A stretch of 57,956 bases of DNA. It comes from Modestobacter altitudinis (GTDB lineage Bacteria > Actinomycetota > Actinomycetes > Mycobacteriales > Geodermatophilaceae). Below, piece after piece: positions 7,629 through 49,560 of the stretch. Each line of letters starts with the position of its first letter. The first letter of the stretch is position 1. The notes under the pieces are model-generated. The model made no database searches and was not told the origin of the DNA. It saw only the letters and a program-made list of their open reading frames with translations. The stretch covers positions 1 to 57,956 of the forward strand of contig NZ_SJEW01000027.1 of assembly GCF_005930475.1 (NCBI RefSeq). The letters run 5' to 3'. A program made the position numbers and the translations under genes.

Positions 7629-7717
7629 GGCGGTCCCGTGGGTGCGGCGGCGGTCGACGGTGCCCAGCGTGCTCGCTCCGGGCCCTCGGGAACACCCTGC
7701 TCCGGCCCCTGGTGCCG

Positions 7718-7747
7718 GCCCCGCCGCAGACCTGCAGGCGGTGGGGC
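7718..7747 (-). terminator. Candidate terminator downstream of bldD
   Basis: Ten-base arms (7718-7727 and 7738-7747) with a single mismatch on the minus-strand RNA and a 10-base loop. It begins 8 bases after the bldD stop codon. It would insulate bldD from the co-oriented P450 gene downstream. Confidence 0.45.
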
Positions 7748-7754
7748 CCTCCGG

Positions 7755-20129: not shown

Positions 20130-20393
20130 GTGTCCGGAGTCGCACCCGCCCCTGAGGGCATCACCAACCCGCCCATCGACGAGCTGCTCGAGCGCACCAG
20201 CAGCAAGTACGGGCTGGTCATCTACGCCGCCAAGCGCGCGCGTCAGATCAACGCCTACTACAGCCAGCTCTCCGAGGGCCTGCTGGAGTACGTCGGCCCG
20301 CTGGTCGACACCGCGCCCCAGGAGAAGCCGCTCTCGATCGCCCTGCGCGAGATCAACGAGGGCCTGCTGACCCACACCGCCGGCGAGAACTGA
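20130..20393 (+). CDS. rpoZ: RNA polymerase omega subunit
   Basis: Assists folding and assembly of the beta' subunit. The 87-residue protein has the family core [20 protein letters not shown], then [17 protein letters not shown], followed by [13 protein letters not shown]. The GTG start is preceded by GAGGAG at a normal distance. It follows gmk by 84 bases. Immediately after its stop lies one copy of the structured repeat described separately, so this is probably the end of the mihF-gmk-rpoZ transcript. Confidence 0.93.
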
Positions 20394-20455
20394 GAGGACC
20401 ACCCTTCCCCCCACGCCTCGCAGGCTCGGCGCGGGCCCCTGAAGGGTGGCCGTTC
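20394..20455 (+). repeat. Structured repeat, copy 1 (after rpoZ)
   Basis: Begins on the base after the rpoZ stop. Outer stem CCACCCTTC (20399-20407) with GAAGGGTGG (20441-20449). The inner core contains CCCACGCC, CGCAGGCTCG and GCGCGGGCCCCT. The core is shared with copies after hisG and pucR, while the outer stem sequence differs in each copy but stays complementary. It may act as a terminator or be a small mobile palindromic element. Confidence 0.7.
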
Positions 20456-20471
20456 CAGCTCGTTGTGATGA

Positions 20472-20498
20472 CGCCTCCGGCACCTGGTGCCGGGGGCG
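20472..20498 (+). terminator. Hairpin between rpoZ and coaBC
   Basis: Twelve-base stem (20472-20483 with 20487-20498, one G-U pair) closed by a CTG loop. It is flanked by a further complementary pair (ATGAC 20468-20472 and GTCAT 20501-20505). Position and strength fit a terminator for the upstream transcript, or a leader structure for coaBC, whose ATG is 28 bases downstream. Confidence 0.5.
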
Positions 20499-20525
20499 CT
20501 GTCATGTGCACGGGAGGATGACCGC

Positions 20526-34413: not shown

Positions 34414-35280
34414 GTGCTGCGCGTCGCCGTCCCGAACAAGGGCGTCCTGAGCGAACCCGCGGCGGCGATGCTCGCCGAGAGCGGGTACCGGCAGCGCCGC
34501 ACCACCAGCGAGCTGGCGGTGTACGACCCGGAGAACGACACCGAGTTCTTCTACCTCCGGCCGCGGGACATCGCCGTCTACGTCGCCGCCGGCACCCTGG
34601 ACGTCGGGATCACCGGGCGCGACATGCTGCTGGAGACCACGCGGACCGACGGCGAGGGCACGGTCGCCGCCGAGGTCATGCCGCTGGGCTTCGGCCGCTC
34701 GTCCTTCCGCTTCGCCAGCCCGGCCGACTCCCCGGTCGACGAGGTCGCCAAGCTCGAGGGCAGGCGGATCGCCACCGCCTACCCGGGGCTGCTGCAGCGC
34801 TTCCTGGACGAGACGGGCATGAAGGCCTCGGTGGTCAAGCTGGACGGCGCGGTGGAGACCGCCTGCCGGCTCGGTGTCGCCGACGCGGTCTGCGACGTCG
34901 TGGAGACCGGGACGACGCTGCGCGCCGCCGGCCTGCGGATCATCGGCGACCCGGTGCTGGCCAGCGAGGCGGTGCTGGTCCGCCGGGCTGGTGCCGAGGA
35001 CGTCCCCGCCGTCGCCCAGCTGCGCCGCCGGCTGCAGGGCGTCCTGGTCGCCCGGCGCTACGTGATGCTCGACTACGACTGCCCGGACGAGATCCTGGCC
35101 CAGGCCACCGCCATCACCCCCGGTCTCGAGGGGCCGACGGTCAGCCCGCTGCAGACCGAGAACTGGTCCGCCGTGCGCGCCATGGTGCTCAAGGACGACA
35201 CCAACCGGGTGATGGACGAGCTGTGGGAGCTCGGCGCGCGGGCGATCCTGGTCACCAGCATCGCCGCCTCCCGCATCTGA
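34414..35280 (+). CDS. hisG: ATP phosphoribosyltransferase, long form
   Basis: First enzyme of histidine synthesis, feedback-inhibited by histidine. At 288 residues this is the long form with a C-terminal ACT-like regulatory domain (from about residue 215: DYDCPDEILAQATAITPGLEGPTVSPL). The catalytic domain begins LRVAVPNKGVLSEPA. It has the PRPP-binding loop in DAVCDVVETGTTLRAAGL. GTG 34414 follows AGGAG. Directly after the stop lies a doubled structured repeat. Confidence 0.95.
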   Translation: MLRVAVPNKGVLSEPAAAMLAESGYRQRRTTSELAVYDPENDTEFFYLRPRDIAVYVAAGTLDVGITGRDMLLETTRTDGEGTVAAEVMPLGFGRSSFRFASPADSPVDEVAKLEGRRIATAYPGLLQRFLDETGMKASVVKLDGAVETACRLGVADAVCDVVETGTTLRAAGLRIIGDPVLASEAVLVRRAGAEDVPAVAQLRRRLQGVLVARRYVMLDYDCPDEILAQATAITPGLEGPTVSPLQTENWSAVRAMVLKDDTNRVMDELWELGARAILVTSIAASRI

Positions 35281-35392
35281 AAGGACCCCCGTGCCCCCCG
35301 CCACTCGCAGGCTCGCGGCGGGACCCTGCACGGGGGCCGCCGTGCCCCCCGCCACTCGCAGGCTCGCGGCGGGACCCTGCACGGGGGCCGGC
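35281..35392 (+). repeat. Structured repeat, copy 2, tandemly duplicated (after hisG)
   Basis: Starts one base after the hisG stop. A 51-base unit is present twice in tandem (35291 and 35342 start the same words). The outer stem of the first unit is CCCCCGTGC (35286-35294) with GCACGGGGG (35328-35336). The inner core holds CCCCGCC, CTCGCAGGCTCG and GGCGGGACCCTG. It is homologous to the copies after rpoZ and pucR. The repeat runs into the next open reading frame. Confidence 0.75.
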
Positions 35393-37141: not shown

Positions 37142-39103
37142 GTGACTGAACGTGAGGCATCCGTGATCTACGCCGCTCAGAGCGATCGAGCAGCTACTTT
37201 CAGTACCGTGTCAGCGTCCGCGGAACCGGTGCTGTCGCAGGTCGCCCCGGCGGACCGGAGCACCCTGCAGGACAGCATGGGGCTGACCGTCGACCAGCTG
37301 CTGGAGCTCCCCGGCCTCGAGGGCTCGATCGTCGTCGGCGGCGCCACGGGCACCCGGCGGATCGTGCGGCACGTCGCCGTCGACGACCCGGCGCAGCCGC
37401 TGGCCGGGGCCGGCCCGGACGTGCTGGTCGTGCTGGCCGGCCGGTTGCCGCAGGCGGACCCGGCGCAGAGCCGGGCGCTCATCGAGCGGTTGCACCGCGG
37501 CGGCAACGGCGCGCTGGCCTACCGCTCGGAGGTCGGTGCGGCCAGCGTGGCGGGGGAGATGCCGGCCGAGGTCCTCGCCGAGGCCGACCGCCGCGGTTTC
37601 CCGGTGCTCGCGCTGCCCAGCAGCACCCGGCTCGACGAGGTCGTGGCCGAGGTGCTCGGCGCGATCATCGACAAGCAGACCCAGGCGCTCTCGCTCGCCA
37701 ACCGGATGCACAACCAGTTCATCGACGTCGCGCTGTCCGGTGGGGGGCTGGCCGAGGTGACCGCCCAGGCGTCCACCATCCTCGCCGGCGCCGCGGTGCT
37801 GGGGCTCGGGCCGGACCGCGAGGTCGCGTTCAGCGCCGGACCGCCGGAGGAGGTCACGGAGATCCGTGACTGGCTGTGGCTGCTGGACGCGGCGGCGGAC
37901 GACGCCTTCGCCGACCTGACGCCGTCCCGGCGGCTGTCGGGCAACCGGGCCGACCAGAGCGTGGTCACCCCGGCGGACGTGCTCGCCGACGCCGACCTGT
38001 CGCCCGCTGACGGCATCCTGCTCGTCCCCGGGCACCACGAGCTGCCCGGCGGTACCGGCGAGTACGCCGTCGCGCCGATCATGGCCGGTGAGCAGCGGCA
38101 CGGCTGGCTGGTCGCGGTCAACCGGCACGGCCCGATGCTGCTGGGTGCGGGGGCGGTCCTCGAGCAGGCCGCTGTCATCGCCGCGCTGTCGGAGATCCGC
38201 TCGCAGGCCGTGCACTCGGTCGAGCTGCGCTTCCAGGGTGACCTGGTGCGCCGGCTGGTCGGCGGCGTCGTCGGGCACACCGAGCGGACCCTGGCCTACA
38301 CCCGGTCCTTCGGCTGGCGGCTGGACGGACCGGTCGTGGTCCTGGTGAGCGGCACCGAGACGGTGGCCGATGCCAGCGCCGACCCGACCCGGGCCCTGGA
38401 CGTGCTCGACCGCCTCGCCGACGGCTGGCGCGCCGCGGTGGACGCCGAGGTGGCCGGCGCTGCGGTGGCCGGGCTGGCGACCGAGATCGTCACCGTGCTG
38501 CCGCTGGACGGGCGCAGCCCCGAGGAGCTCTCCGCCCTGGTCGCCGCGGTCACCGCCCGGGTCAACGCGCGACTGCGCCGGGTCGGCCGGTTGCTGGGCA
38601 CCGGCATCGGGCGCCCGGCGGAGTCGCTGTCCGCGCTGGCCGAGGCCTACCAGCAGGCGCAGCGCGCGCTGGTCGTGGGCCAGGAGATCCACGGCGGGCA
38701 CGCCGTCACCCACTTTGACCAGCTCGGGGTGTTCCGGCTGCTGTCGCTGATCCCGGACAGCAACGAGCTGCGCTCCTACGTCGACGAGGTGCTCGGGCCG
38801 TTGGCCGACTCCGGTGACGCGGACTCGACCGACCTGCGGGACACGCTGCGGGTGCTGCTGGAGACCAACCTCAACGTCGCGGAGTCCGCGCGCCGGCTGC
38901 ACTTCCACTACAACACGATGCGGTACCGGATCGGCAAGCTGGAGCGGCTGCTCGGGCCCTTCACCACCGACCCCACGCTACGGCTGAACCTGCTGCTCGC
39001 CCTGCACGCGGCACGCATGCGCGGGCTGGACCAGCCGCACCGTCCACCGGTGGAGAGCATCGCGGCCCTGGTGCTGGACGACGGCCTGGAGTCCCTGGTC
39101 TGA
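37142..39103 (+). CDS. PucR-family transcriptional regulator
   Basis: A 653-residue regulator. The N-terminal PucR purine-catabolism domain begins at about residue 40 (GLTVDQLLELPGLEGSIVVGG, then VRHVAVDDP). A CdaR-type GGDEF-like middle region follows. At 575-605 is the PucR C-terminal helix-turn-helix: NVAESARRLHFHYNTMRYRI, then GKLERLLG. GTG 37142 is taken; later starts at 37163 or the ATG of MGLTVDQ (37259) are also possible. The family controls purine/ureide or amino-acid use, matching the divergent AllH gene and downstream NCS2 permease. A structured repeat follows its stop. Confidence 0.88.
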   Translation: MTEREASVIYAAQSDRAATFSTVSASAEPVLSQVAPADRSTLQDSMGLTVDQLLELPGLEGSIVVGGATGTRRIVRHVAVDDPAQPLAGAGPDVLVVLAGRLPQADPAQSRALIERLHRGGNGALAYRSEVGAASVAGEMPAEVLAEADRRGFPVLALPSSTRLDEVVAEVLGAIIDKQTQALSLANRMHNQFIDVALSGGGLAEVTAQASTILAGAAVLGLGPDREVAFSAGPPEEVTEIRDWLWLLDAAADDAFADLTPSRRLSGNRADQSVVTPADVLADADLSPADGILLVPGHHELPGGTGEYAVAPIMAGEQRHGWLVAVNRHGPMLLGAGAVLEQAAVIAALSEIRSQAVHSVELRFQGDLVRRLVGGVVGHTERTLAYTRSFGWRLDGPVVVLVSGTETVADASADPTRALDVLDRLADGWRAAVDAEVAGAAVAGLATEIVTVLPLDGRSPEELSALVAAVTARVNARLRRVGRLLGTGIGRPAESLSALAEAYQQAQRALVVGQEIHGGHAVTHFDQLGVFRLLSLIPDSNELRSYVDEVLGPLADSGDADSTDLRDTLRVLLETNLNVAESARRLHFHYNTMRYRIGKLERLLGPFTTDPTLRLNLLLALHAARMRGLDQPHRPPVESIAALVLDDGLESLV

Positions 39104-47682: not shown

Positions 47683-48329
47683 CCCAGACCGACCAGACCG
47701 CCGGCTTCCCCGGACTGCTGGATCCCAACCTGGTGCTGCGGCGCCACGTCGAGGACCTCTCGGCCCGCTTCACGGGGATGGTGAGCCCCGAGACCGTCGA
47801 GCGGATGGTGTTCGAGTCCTACGCCGCACTCGGCCGCACCGCCAAGGTCAAGGCCCACCTGCCGGTGCTCACCTGTCGCTTCGCGACCGAGCGGCTCACC
47901 GCCCTCGCGCAGGCCAAGGGAGTGCTGGCCAAGGAAGCCCCCGAGGTCCTGTTCATCTGCGTGCAGAACGCCGGGCGCTCGCAGCTGGCCGCCGCCATGG
48001 TGGAGCACCTCTCGGAGGGGCGCGTGCACGTCCGATCCGCCGGGTCCATGCCCGCCGACGAGATCGACCCCGTCGTCCTCGAGGTGCTGACCGCCCGCGG
48101 GATGGTGGTGACCGACGCCTTTCCCAAGCCGCTCACCGACGACGTCGTCCAGGCCGCCGACGTGGTCATCACCATGGGCTGCGGCGATGCCTGCCCGGTC
48201 TACCCCGGCAAGCGCTACCTGGACTGGGACGTTCCCGACCCGGCCGGCCAGGACCCGGCTGCGGTCGACGCGATCGCCACCGACATCGAGACCCGCGTCC
48301 GGGGGCTCCTCTCCGAGCTCGGCGCATGA
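47679..48329 (+). CDS. arsC: Arsenate reductase (LMW-phosphatase type) with N-terminal helical domain
   Basis: Reduces arsenate, probably with mycothiol/mycoredoxin. Of 216 residues, about 1-85 form an added all-helical domain (DPNLVLRRHVEDLSARFTGM, ERLTALAQAKGVL) of the three-helix-bundle dimerisation type found in actinobacterial ArsC. The catalytic P-loop is C94-VQNAG-R100. The acidic loop [20 protein letters not shown] contains the CGDAC cysteines of arsenate-mycothiol transferases. ATG 47679 overlaps acr3. Confidence 0.9.
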   Translation: MTQTDQTAGFPGLLDPNLVLRRHVEDLSARFTGMVSPETVERMVFESYAALGRTAKVKAHLPVLTCRFATERLTALAQAKGVLAKEAPEVLFICVQNAGRSQLAAAMVEHLSEGRVHVRSAGSMPADEIDPVVLEVLTARGMVVTDAFPKPLTDDVVQAADVVITMGCGDACPVYPGKRYLDWDVPDPAGQDPAAVDAIATDIETRVRGLLSELGA

Positions 48330-48692
48330 GCCGCCGGCTGGTCGTCGTCGGCGGCAGCGACGCCGGCATCTCCGCCGGCCTGCGCGCCCGCGAGCTCGAC
48401 CCGACCGCTGAGGTCACGCGACACCGGTCGGCTGCTCGGCGCGCAACTGGTCGGCCGGCTGGGCAGCGAGATCGCCAAGCGGGCCGATGTCTTCGCCACG
48501 GCGCTGTTCCATGCCATGACCGTGGAGGGCATGGCCGACCTGGACCTGGCCTACACCCCGCCGCTGGGTTCACCCTGGGACGCAGTCCAGATCGCCGCCC
48601 AGGCCTGGAGCCGTGAACACCGACCGCCCAGCATCGACGCCCTGCCGTCGGTTCTCAGCCGAACCGACGCCGTGAGCAAGGAGACCCCGTGA
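48326..48692 (+). pseudogene. FAD/NAD-dependent oxidoreductase remnant (internal deletion)
   Basis: ATG 48326 overlaps the arsC stop and opens with a flavoprotein dinucleotide-binding start (SRRLVVVGGSDAGISAGLRA, then RELDPTAEVT). At about 48417-48420 the reading jumps to the third codon phase, which then encodes the C-terminus of the same protein type: GRLLGAQLVGRLGSEIAKRA, then ALFHAMTVEGMADLDLAYTP and SPWDAVQIAAQAW, ending with TGA 48690-48692. The central 300 or so residues (rest of the FAD domain, NAD domain) are missing. The N- and C-terminal ends still keep the GTGA-type overlaps with both neighbours, showing that the intact gene once sat in this operon. It resembles CoA-disulfide-reductase-like enzymes. 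Confidence 0.85.
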
Positions 48693-49111
48693 GTGACCGC
48701 CCCAGCGTCCTGTTCGTCTGCGTGCACAACGCCGGCCGCTCCCAGATGGCCGCCGGCTGGCTCCGGCACCTGGCCGGCGACGCCGTCGAGGTGCGCTCCG
48801 CCGGCTCGGTCCCCGGGGACCAGGTCAACCCCTCTGCCGTGGCGGCGATGGCCGAGGTCGGCATCGACATCTCCGACCAGCGCCCCAAGGTGCTCACCAC
48901 CGACGCCGTCGAGGCCTCCGACGTCGTCATCACCATGGGCTGCGGCGACGCCTGCCCGGTCTTCCCCGGGAAGCGGTACCTGGACTGGGCGCTGGAGGAC
49001 CCGGCGGGCAAGGGCGTGGAGTCCGTCCGCCCCATCCGCGACGAGATCGAGGGCCGCATCCGCGGCCTGCTCGCCGAGCTGCAGGTGCCCGGCGTCAGCA
49101 ATGCCTTGTGA
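48689..49111 (+). CDS. arsC: Arsenate reductase / arsenate-mycothiol transferase
   Basis: A 140-residue LMW-phosphatase-fold ArsC without the helical extension. P-loop C11-VHNAG-R17-[18 protein letters not shown], and [20 protein letters not shown] with the CGDAC cysteines. All residues expected of mycothiol-dependent ArsC are present. GTG 48689 overlaps the pseudogene stop and its own stop overlaps the next arsC-like gene. Highly similar to the catalytic part of the 47679 copy, so duplication is likely. Confidence 0.92.
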
Positions 49112-49560
49112 CGGGCAGGCCCAGCGTCCTGTTCGTCTGCGTGCACAACGCCGGCAAGTCCCAGATGGCCGCCGGCCTGATGGAGGACCTGGCCGGGGAC
49201 GCCATCGACGTCCACTCCGCCGGCACCGCACCCGGTGACGCGGTCAACGAGCAGTCCGCCCGGTCCCTCGCCGAGCTCGGCATCGACATCTCCGGTGCGC
49301 GCCCCAGGCCGATCAGCCCCGAGCTGGTGCGCGGCGTCGACGTCGTGGTGACCCTCGGCCTCGAGGCGCAGGTCGAACCGGTCGAGGGCACGCGCTTCGA
49401 GACCTGGGACACCGACGAGCCCTCGGCACGCGGCATCGAGGGCATGGAGCGGATGCGGCTGGTCCGCGACGACATCGCCGCCCGGGTGCGGTCCCTGGCC
49501 GCCGAACTGGGTGTGCAGCCCGACGTGGCACGCGATCGGGAGGGAGAGCTGTCCGGCTAG
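49108..49560 (+). CDS. ArsC-like LMW phosphatase-family protein, Lys variant
   Basis: A 150-residue paralogue with the start almost identical to the preceding gene ([20 protein letters not shown]). The P-loop Arg is Lys17, giving C-x5-K rather than C-x5-R. The CGDAC loop is replaced by [20 protein letters not shown], so the resolving cysteines of ArsC are absent. The C-terminus contains [20 protein letters not shown]. Reductase or phosphatase chemistry by the known mechanism is therefore doubtful. GTG 49108 overlaps the previous stop. The TAG stop overlaps the TAG of the convergent MFS gene. Confidence 0.88.

Follow-up and report, generated by a model that had tools for sequence, protein, structure and literature searches.

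The repeat that follows the stop codons of three genes in a 57,956-nt stretch of Modestobacter altitudinis DNA (the whole stretch analysed here, hereafter the window) has many relatives in Geodermatophilaceae, and the explanation we favour, at somewhat less than even odds, is a family of ~60-bp non-autonomous mobile palindromes. We find many copies, most of them anchored on the coding strand just after stop codons, whose arms stay matched. At a given site, close relatives can have a copy or lack it, carry it inverted, or have the whole element replaced.

The original prediction had described three dispersed, structured copies on the same strand, directly after the stops of rpoZ, hisG and pucR. 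The sequences are as described, and the hisG-site feature is two copies, because a second tandem unit adjoins the first. Read directly from the window, the rpoZ TGA is followed by the repeat GAGGACCACCCTTC...GAAGGGTGGCC, the hisG TGA by AAAGGACCCCCGTGC...GCACGGGGGCC and then the second unit, and the stop of a PucR-like gene, after a gap of 1 base, by GAAGGACCTCGTCCC...GGGACGAGGCC. The window holds four copies in total, two of them in tandem 3' of hisG:

20130..20393, + strand: rpoZ (NCBIfam), host gene of copy 1
20393..20453, + strand: copy 1, 3' of the rpoZ stop; outer stem CCACCCTTC/GAAGGGTGG; 84.6 bits
34414..35280, + strand: hisG (NCBIfam), host gene of copies 2a and 2b
35280..35340, + strand: copy 2a, 3' of the hisG stop; outer stem CCCCCGTGC/GCACGGGGG; 82.3 bits
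35341..35391, + strand: copy 2b, tandem unit; right arm as in copy 2a, left arm different by 1 base; 50.2 bits, covering model positions 11-53 only
37496..39103, + strand: PucR-like regulator gene (Pfam), host of copy 3; 37496 is the start of the translated stretch, not a mapped start codon
39105..39166, + strand: copy 3, 1 base 3' of the PucR-like stop codon; outer stem CCTCGTCCC/GGGACGAGG; loop diverged; 73.0 bits

The PucR-like gene scores above the Pfam cut-off for HTH_30 and GGDEF_2 and below it for PucR, and it has no match in NCBIfam at 1e-10. A typical copy consists of the stop codon, N, GAAGGA, a 9-base arm starting with CC, CCCCCACC, a loop such as NCTCGCAGGCTCGN, GGCGGG, NCCCT, the matching arm and CC. 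Taken singly, the window copies have modest folding z-scores, ranging from -0.11 to -2.04 for the sense strand and from -1.34 to -3.15 for the template strand, and for the hisG copy the folding tool does not give the template strand the more extreme value. Elsewhere in the window, a weak model match on the minus strand at 7715-7752 (23.2 bits, E 0.085), lying 2 nt past a called stop, is a short hairpin with a GGAGGGCC head and possibly a degenerate copy of the repeat. A second, separate hairpin lies at ~20470-20510, between rpoZ and the gene that follows, coaBC-like on inspection by eye; it is also found in many family members (rpoZ loci L077, L078, L084-L088), and a similar one occurs in a Streptomyces. 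Direct repeats at 47928-49248 (a 300-nt pair at 72% and three 141-nt segments at 68-81%) are probably duplicated coding sequence.

The genome that holds the window (contig C81) is 5.18 Mb long and is called G000 below. A strict core pattern occurs at 38 places in it and the reversed pattern at none; 20 hits were fetched, one of which (L018) is a chance match in another context. The original prediction had suggested a covariance-model search, which would have spoken against it by finding no further copies or copies with unpaired outer arms. Our model R1, built on 12 copies in an alignment made from the pattern's own hits, returned many further copies, with arms that pair: at least 151 matches in G000, where the best 150 of 16590 first-look candidates were scored. 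At E <0.01 it gave 38 matches in 446 kb of G000 and 68 in 1.11 Mb of three relatives, a density that extrapolates to ~300-450 copies per genome, with the G000 stretches taken from contigs already known to hold copies.

Matches were found in all 23 genomes of the genus and in none of 16 genomes from other families in the same search, and they extend to 102 of the 112 Geodermatophilaceae genomes and 9 of the 12 genera. An order-wide sample gave matches in 54/298 genomes, 51 of them in this family and 3, with 1-2 copies each, in two other families. Copy-poor genomes sit in otherwise rich genera (G039 with 0 copies, G067 with 1, G055 with 2, G114 with 5 and G045 with 6), and stretches from other genera are mostly sparser, with 15 matches in 200 kb of G081, 2 in 100 kb of G062 and 3 plus 4 in 300 kb of G044. 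The model found no match in the 184 kb searched of G055. We rejected the idea that another repeat takes its place there; the commonest 9-mer after stops is found at 6/165 genes, and no AGGACC lies within 12 nt of a stop. A consensus-like copy used as query found no match in the phage or plasmid collections, and the window gave no Rfam match at gathering score. A loose search of two copies returned only eukaryotic families far below that score, and a known Rfam family was discarded as an explanation. The open-access literature that we searched contained no description of the repeat, which is not proof of absence. Among 16 named rpoZ loci, the DNA nearest to that of the window is from Modestobacter muralis (86.8% over 4.6 kb), whose rpoZ 3' region is the same as that of the genus mate G012. 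One record titled UNVERIFIED_ORG Bacillus sp. AZ43 (L083, SPQJ01000006.1) looks mislabelled, because its rpoZ locus is Geodermatophilaceae-like, with 98% protein identity.

We analysed the position of the copies relative to genes called with a home-made gene caller. In G000, the start lies between -4 and +3 nt of a called same-strand stop in 26 of 37 copies (a set that leaves out one partial match, L065:12080), 14 of these beginning exactly 1 nt past the stop; 4/37 lack a same-strand stop nearby. Across four genomes, a stop triplet lies 0-5 nt before AGG in 61 of 87 copies and a reverse stop at the other end in 7/87; for this count 11 of 98 copies were dropped, and 8/98 in another. Copies occupy 25/291 codirectional gaps of G000 (24/161 of those with at least 20 nt left over), 7/66 convergent gaps and 1/65 divergent gaps, the single divergent case probably reflecting a miscalled gene. 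Other hairpins also favour this position: in element-free genes, those of at least 8 bp are commoner 0-24 nt after stops (45 and 56 of 394 in the two 12-nt bins nearest the stop) than further out (14-20 per bin from 48 nt on). Two further ideas found no backing, namely that the element supplies its own stop codon (TGA accounts for 51/61 stops beside copies vs 377/426 in called genes) and that it carries a conserved 3' extension GTTCCAGCACGTCAC (GTTCC is present in 15/87 copies).

The outer arms vary and nevertheless pair. Eight of 16 pairs change on both sides among the 12 model copies, and 0/500 shuffles reach the covariation score. For a larger set, 252 rows were reduced to 211 distinct copies by dropping duplicates and rows shorter than 52 nt, and 32 of these failed the arm parser, leaving 179; the source alignments include weak matches (E up to 10), and orthologous copies are counted separately. 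All 8 outer-stem pairs are Watson-Crick in 133/179 copies, and so are 1366 of the 1432 cells, the remainder being 27 A-C, 16 G-U and 23 others. The claim that the outer stem is different each time while keeping its pairing stands as far as pairing is concerned. There are 60 arm types, and different copies can share a stem: the arms CCCCGCTG, CCCCCTCG, CCCCGTCC and CCCTCCTG occur 21, 18, 13 and 12 times, and stem types recur at unrelated sites, contrary to the proposed site-specific stem. No preference for A-C or G-U mismatches is established, because their counts differ at p 0.13; the G-U excess to be expected if mRNA pairing were the thing kept is lacking. Compensatory change had been taken to mean that structure is selected or generated, which is a fair alternative, from which selection on the RNA need not follow given these mismatches and the replacement of most stems together with cores. 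Matched but changing stems are here not proof of selection on RNA, and the data lean to arms that are generated or copied. A loop pseudoknot between CAGG and CCTG was set aside, as the loop centre varies among copies.

Comparison with relatives revealed a rapid turnover. Syntenic sites share a copy in 14/29 cases for G000/G006, 13/27 for G000/G007 and 6/28 for G000/G014, at a median upstream identity to G000 of 95% for G006 and G007 and 91% for G014; since sharing was judged by the model, a site that holds only a degenerate copy, as several visibly do, was scored as lacking one. Where arms are comparable, the left arm has at most one change in 5/8 (G006), 2/8 (G007) and 1/3 (G014) cases, and stem changes are mostly accompanied by core changes. 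One G000 copy sits within an older element that is whole in G006. At 110 element-free orthologous sites we found another hairpin in 32, an opposite-strand element in 15 and neither in 63. Among 16 named family records of the rpoZ site, 9 have a sense copy, Goekera deserti has an inverted one, one has a partial match and 5 have none by the model; two of these 5 (Blastococcus saxobsidens) carry a plain hairpin with similar outer arms. Within the genus, a match lies beside the rpoZ stop at 13/20 loci. The hisG site has a different stem in G010 and G007, and G006 keeps a stem there with the core gone; the PucR-like gene is followed by another stem in G010 and by no copy in G007. A motif look-up gave no output at 6/20 rpoZ and 5/20 hisG loci, and for G016 and G017 its hisG hits fall on the wrong strand; absence at hisG is therefore read from the other lines only. 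Other repeats were noticed as well. A dispersed repeat with core CGAGCATCGCAGGGAGCGCCAGCGACCGAGGAGCGGAA or close to it was listed in 10 copies (window ~10036 on the plus strand, L068:10867, L063, L064, L168, L262, L272, L281, L292 and L298); its L298 copy, flanked by GCCCCGG/CCGGGGC, follows a stop codon at a site that the hairpin element occupies in G000 (C84:34147). In G000, palindromes that are nearly perfect, such as GGAGTGCCAGGGCGCGG...CCGCGCCCCTGGCACTCC, stand beside stops at C73:52610, C73:57592, C84:8782 and C84:91898 (in L057, L064 and L068), three of the four being shared by converging genes.

We compared the two strands of the element. On the coding strand, the inner pair at model columns 21/41 is A-C in 124 of 156 copies (23/179 having been dropped beforehand), G-C in 18, A-U in 12 and A-A in 2, and the pair at 24/38 is A-C in 48/156; on the template strand these mismatches become G-U. 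The antisense RNA is predicted to be the more stable one in 174/179 copies (-38.5 vs -30.9 kcal/mol), partly because that strand is richer in G. After dinucleotide shuffles of 90 sampled copies the bias stays in 79 (z -3.57 vs -2.34), and 28 of 29 copies from other genera, a subset that largely overlaps the 179, agree with it. The bias could reflect either a single-stranded DNA hairpin used in spreading or a terminator directed against antisense transcription. In the latter case, which we consider improbable, the template-strand RNA would form a long hairpin, after which come UCCUUC and the stop codon's complement, and would stop antisense transcription at the gene 3' border, while the A-C mismatches and the missing U-tail would let the sense RNA polymerase pass. 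Such a device would explain both the anchoring at gene borders and the tolerance of copies within operons. At least 3 T are found in the 8 nt after the outer stem in 170/179 copies on the antisense strand vs 4/179 on the sense strand, so that a hairpin with a U-containing tail, as in an intrinsic terminator, is present in antisense and lacking in sense; at least 3 U in 8 nt corresponds to the U-rich class of Streptomyces clavuligerus 3' ends in the portion of PMC8269248 that defines it. However, the antisense tail is no U-run and is partly built in, because the copy filter requires the head. The tail may moreover not be needed in this genome, since most other 3'-end hairpins of G000 lack it (at least 3 T in 10/56 sense and 7/56 antisense, against a background of 8%). 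Convergent gaps are also not enriched (7/66 vs 24/161 codirectional gaps with at least 20 nt left over), and outer-stem mismatches in the copies from other genera are 5 G-U to 3 A-C. It is similarly unlikely that the two ideas combine, so that the family would be mobile and made up of one-way terminators sited at stop codons, weak in sense but with a strong antisense hairpin and U-containing tail, each copy shielding one gene from antisense transcription.

A role of the sense hairpin at mRNA 3' ends, be it as a U-less intrinsic terminator, as a barrier to exonucleases or as a brake on terminating ribosomes, appears to us slightly less improbable, although still doubtful. REPs close to stop codons can brake terminating ribosomes. 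The sense polarity and the place just after stops fit such a role, as do the enrichment of hairpins after stops in element-free genes, the other hairpin at 32/110 element-free orthologous sites, and the C-rich left and G-rich right arms, which resemble the S. clavuligerus ends as PMC8269248 characterizes them in part. Yet in G000 the successive genes nusG, rplK and rplA each have a copy behind them, and another separates sucC from sucD (NCBIfam names), where strong sense termination should be costly. G006, G007 and G014 have no copy at the nusG-rplK and sucC-sucD sites; in the rplK-rplA gap, G007 has an opposite-strand copy, and the model finds none in G006 and G014. For the nusG-rplK copy a gain is the simplest account, as the three relatives share a similar element-free spacer. 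The conserved A-C mismatch weakens the sense hairpin, a sense U-tail is rare, mismatches show no G-U excess and copies turn over rapidly. The operon-internal copies, the sharing of only about half of the copies at ~95% gene-end identity and the swapping of stems with cores together disfavour a strong sense terminator, and the plain terminator family of the original prediction is further weakened by the better template-strand hairpin. Because hairpins are common near stops and stand at some of the element-free sites, a partial terminator or an mRNA-end role is conceivable. A third alternative, which we regard as the least unlikely of the three, concerns the arms only and is compatible with the other readings: mutation itself, by template switching or hairpin repair, would rewrite one arm from the other and generate covariation without selection. 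Template switching can create and repair hairpins, as outlined in the part of PMC8794818 on this mechanism. Concerted changes of several pairs at a single site among relatives, such as CCCCGTTG to CCCCGCCG, and the near balance of C-G (83) and G-C (76) at stem position 5, with 10 mismatches, speak for it. It leaves polarity, anchoring and the conserved A-C unexplained, and the core changes that go with most stem changes, together with a chimeric G006 copy whose left arm is of the G000 type and whose right arm is of the G007 type, point instead to exchange between copies.

We compared the repeat to known systems. Integron attC sites are variable imperfect palindromes after stop codons that are folded on one strand, with complementary end boxes and an integron integrase. 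By description our repeat is alike in its variable imperfect palindrome after stops and its one-strand folding; it differs in that inspection of the listed copies by eye revealed no complementary end boxes and in that it follows chromosomal housekeeping genes. Mycobacterial interspersed repetitive units (MIRUs), set beside it by description only, are likewise actinobacterial repeats placed at stop codons; work by Supply in 1997 reportedly located them at overlapping stop/start codons (DTGA), with no strong dyad symmetry. The S. clavuligerus HS-U-lack ends, in the part of PMC8269248 that covers them, share a GC-rich hairpin near the stop, a C-rich 5' and G-rich 3' arm and no sense U-tail, whereas our repeat is one dispersed family with a better template-strand hairpin, copies inside operons and rapid turnover. 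REP/BIME elements with their RAYT transposases, as far as the REP sections of PMC2817692 describe them, resemble it as short imperfect GC-rich palindromes in more than 100 intergenic copies, with an invariant head on one side and one strand that folds better. The same sections include a GT(A/G)G head in the definition and place RAYTs fitting their criteria in gammaproteobacteria only. Our family does comprise many GC-rich imperfect palindromes (at least 151 matches, with the conserved A-C mismatch), yet its outer stem varies, it is anchored at stop codons, and its head in parsed copies is (G)AAGGA or GAGGA. A linked RAYT had also been suggested. PF01797 (RAYT/Y1 transposase) at E 0.001 matched 0/112 family genomes, while the control search was positive in 5/14 control genomes, and we reject a RAYT-driven REP on this result and the head motif. 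The REP-like mobile palindrome of the original prediction thus holds for a dispersed, structured, mobile-looking family with many copies, which is REP-like in behaviour and not REP by definition, because it has neither a RAYT-type transposase nor a GTRG head.

How might a mobile palindrome of this kind behave? The unit itself, or recombination between copies, would place new copies at gene 3' borders with arms already matched, and concerted events, more than stepwise selection on the mRNA, would re-match the arms. Spread may use a single-stranded hairpin on the template strand, as REP/IS200-like and attC systems do, which would fit because the hairpin is better on that strand; in the mRNA the element would be a tolerated hairpin and at most a partial terminator. 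Against mobility stand the lack of a mobilising enzyme in a search that covered PF01797 only, and the lack of a target-site duplication, expected of a MITE along with terminal inverted repeats, in six aligned sites, where element boundaries are unsure and arms vary. There is also no near-identical pair among 65 G000 copies at 64 sites (the best pair at different sites reaches 95%). Some copies are old, as the mdh-icd copy is common to four genomes and its stem decays. Stop-codon anchoring could finally reflect function rather than targeting. The near-exact placement after stops, the hundreds of estimated copies and the fast turnover, with no known REP transposase, raise the question of what moves the repeat or keeps it there. 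The repeat lends itself well to testing whether covariation in hairpins is a sign of selection or of mutation, and it offers a testable directional terminator. In these genomes, it can mislead terminator prediction and covariation-based RNA discovery.
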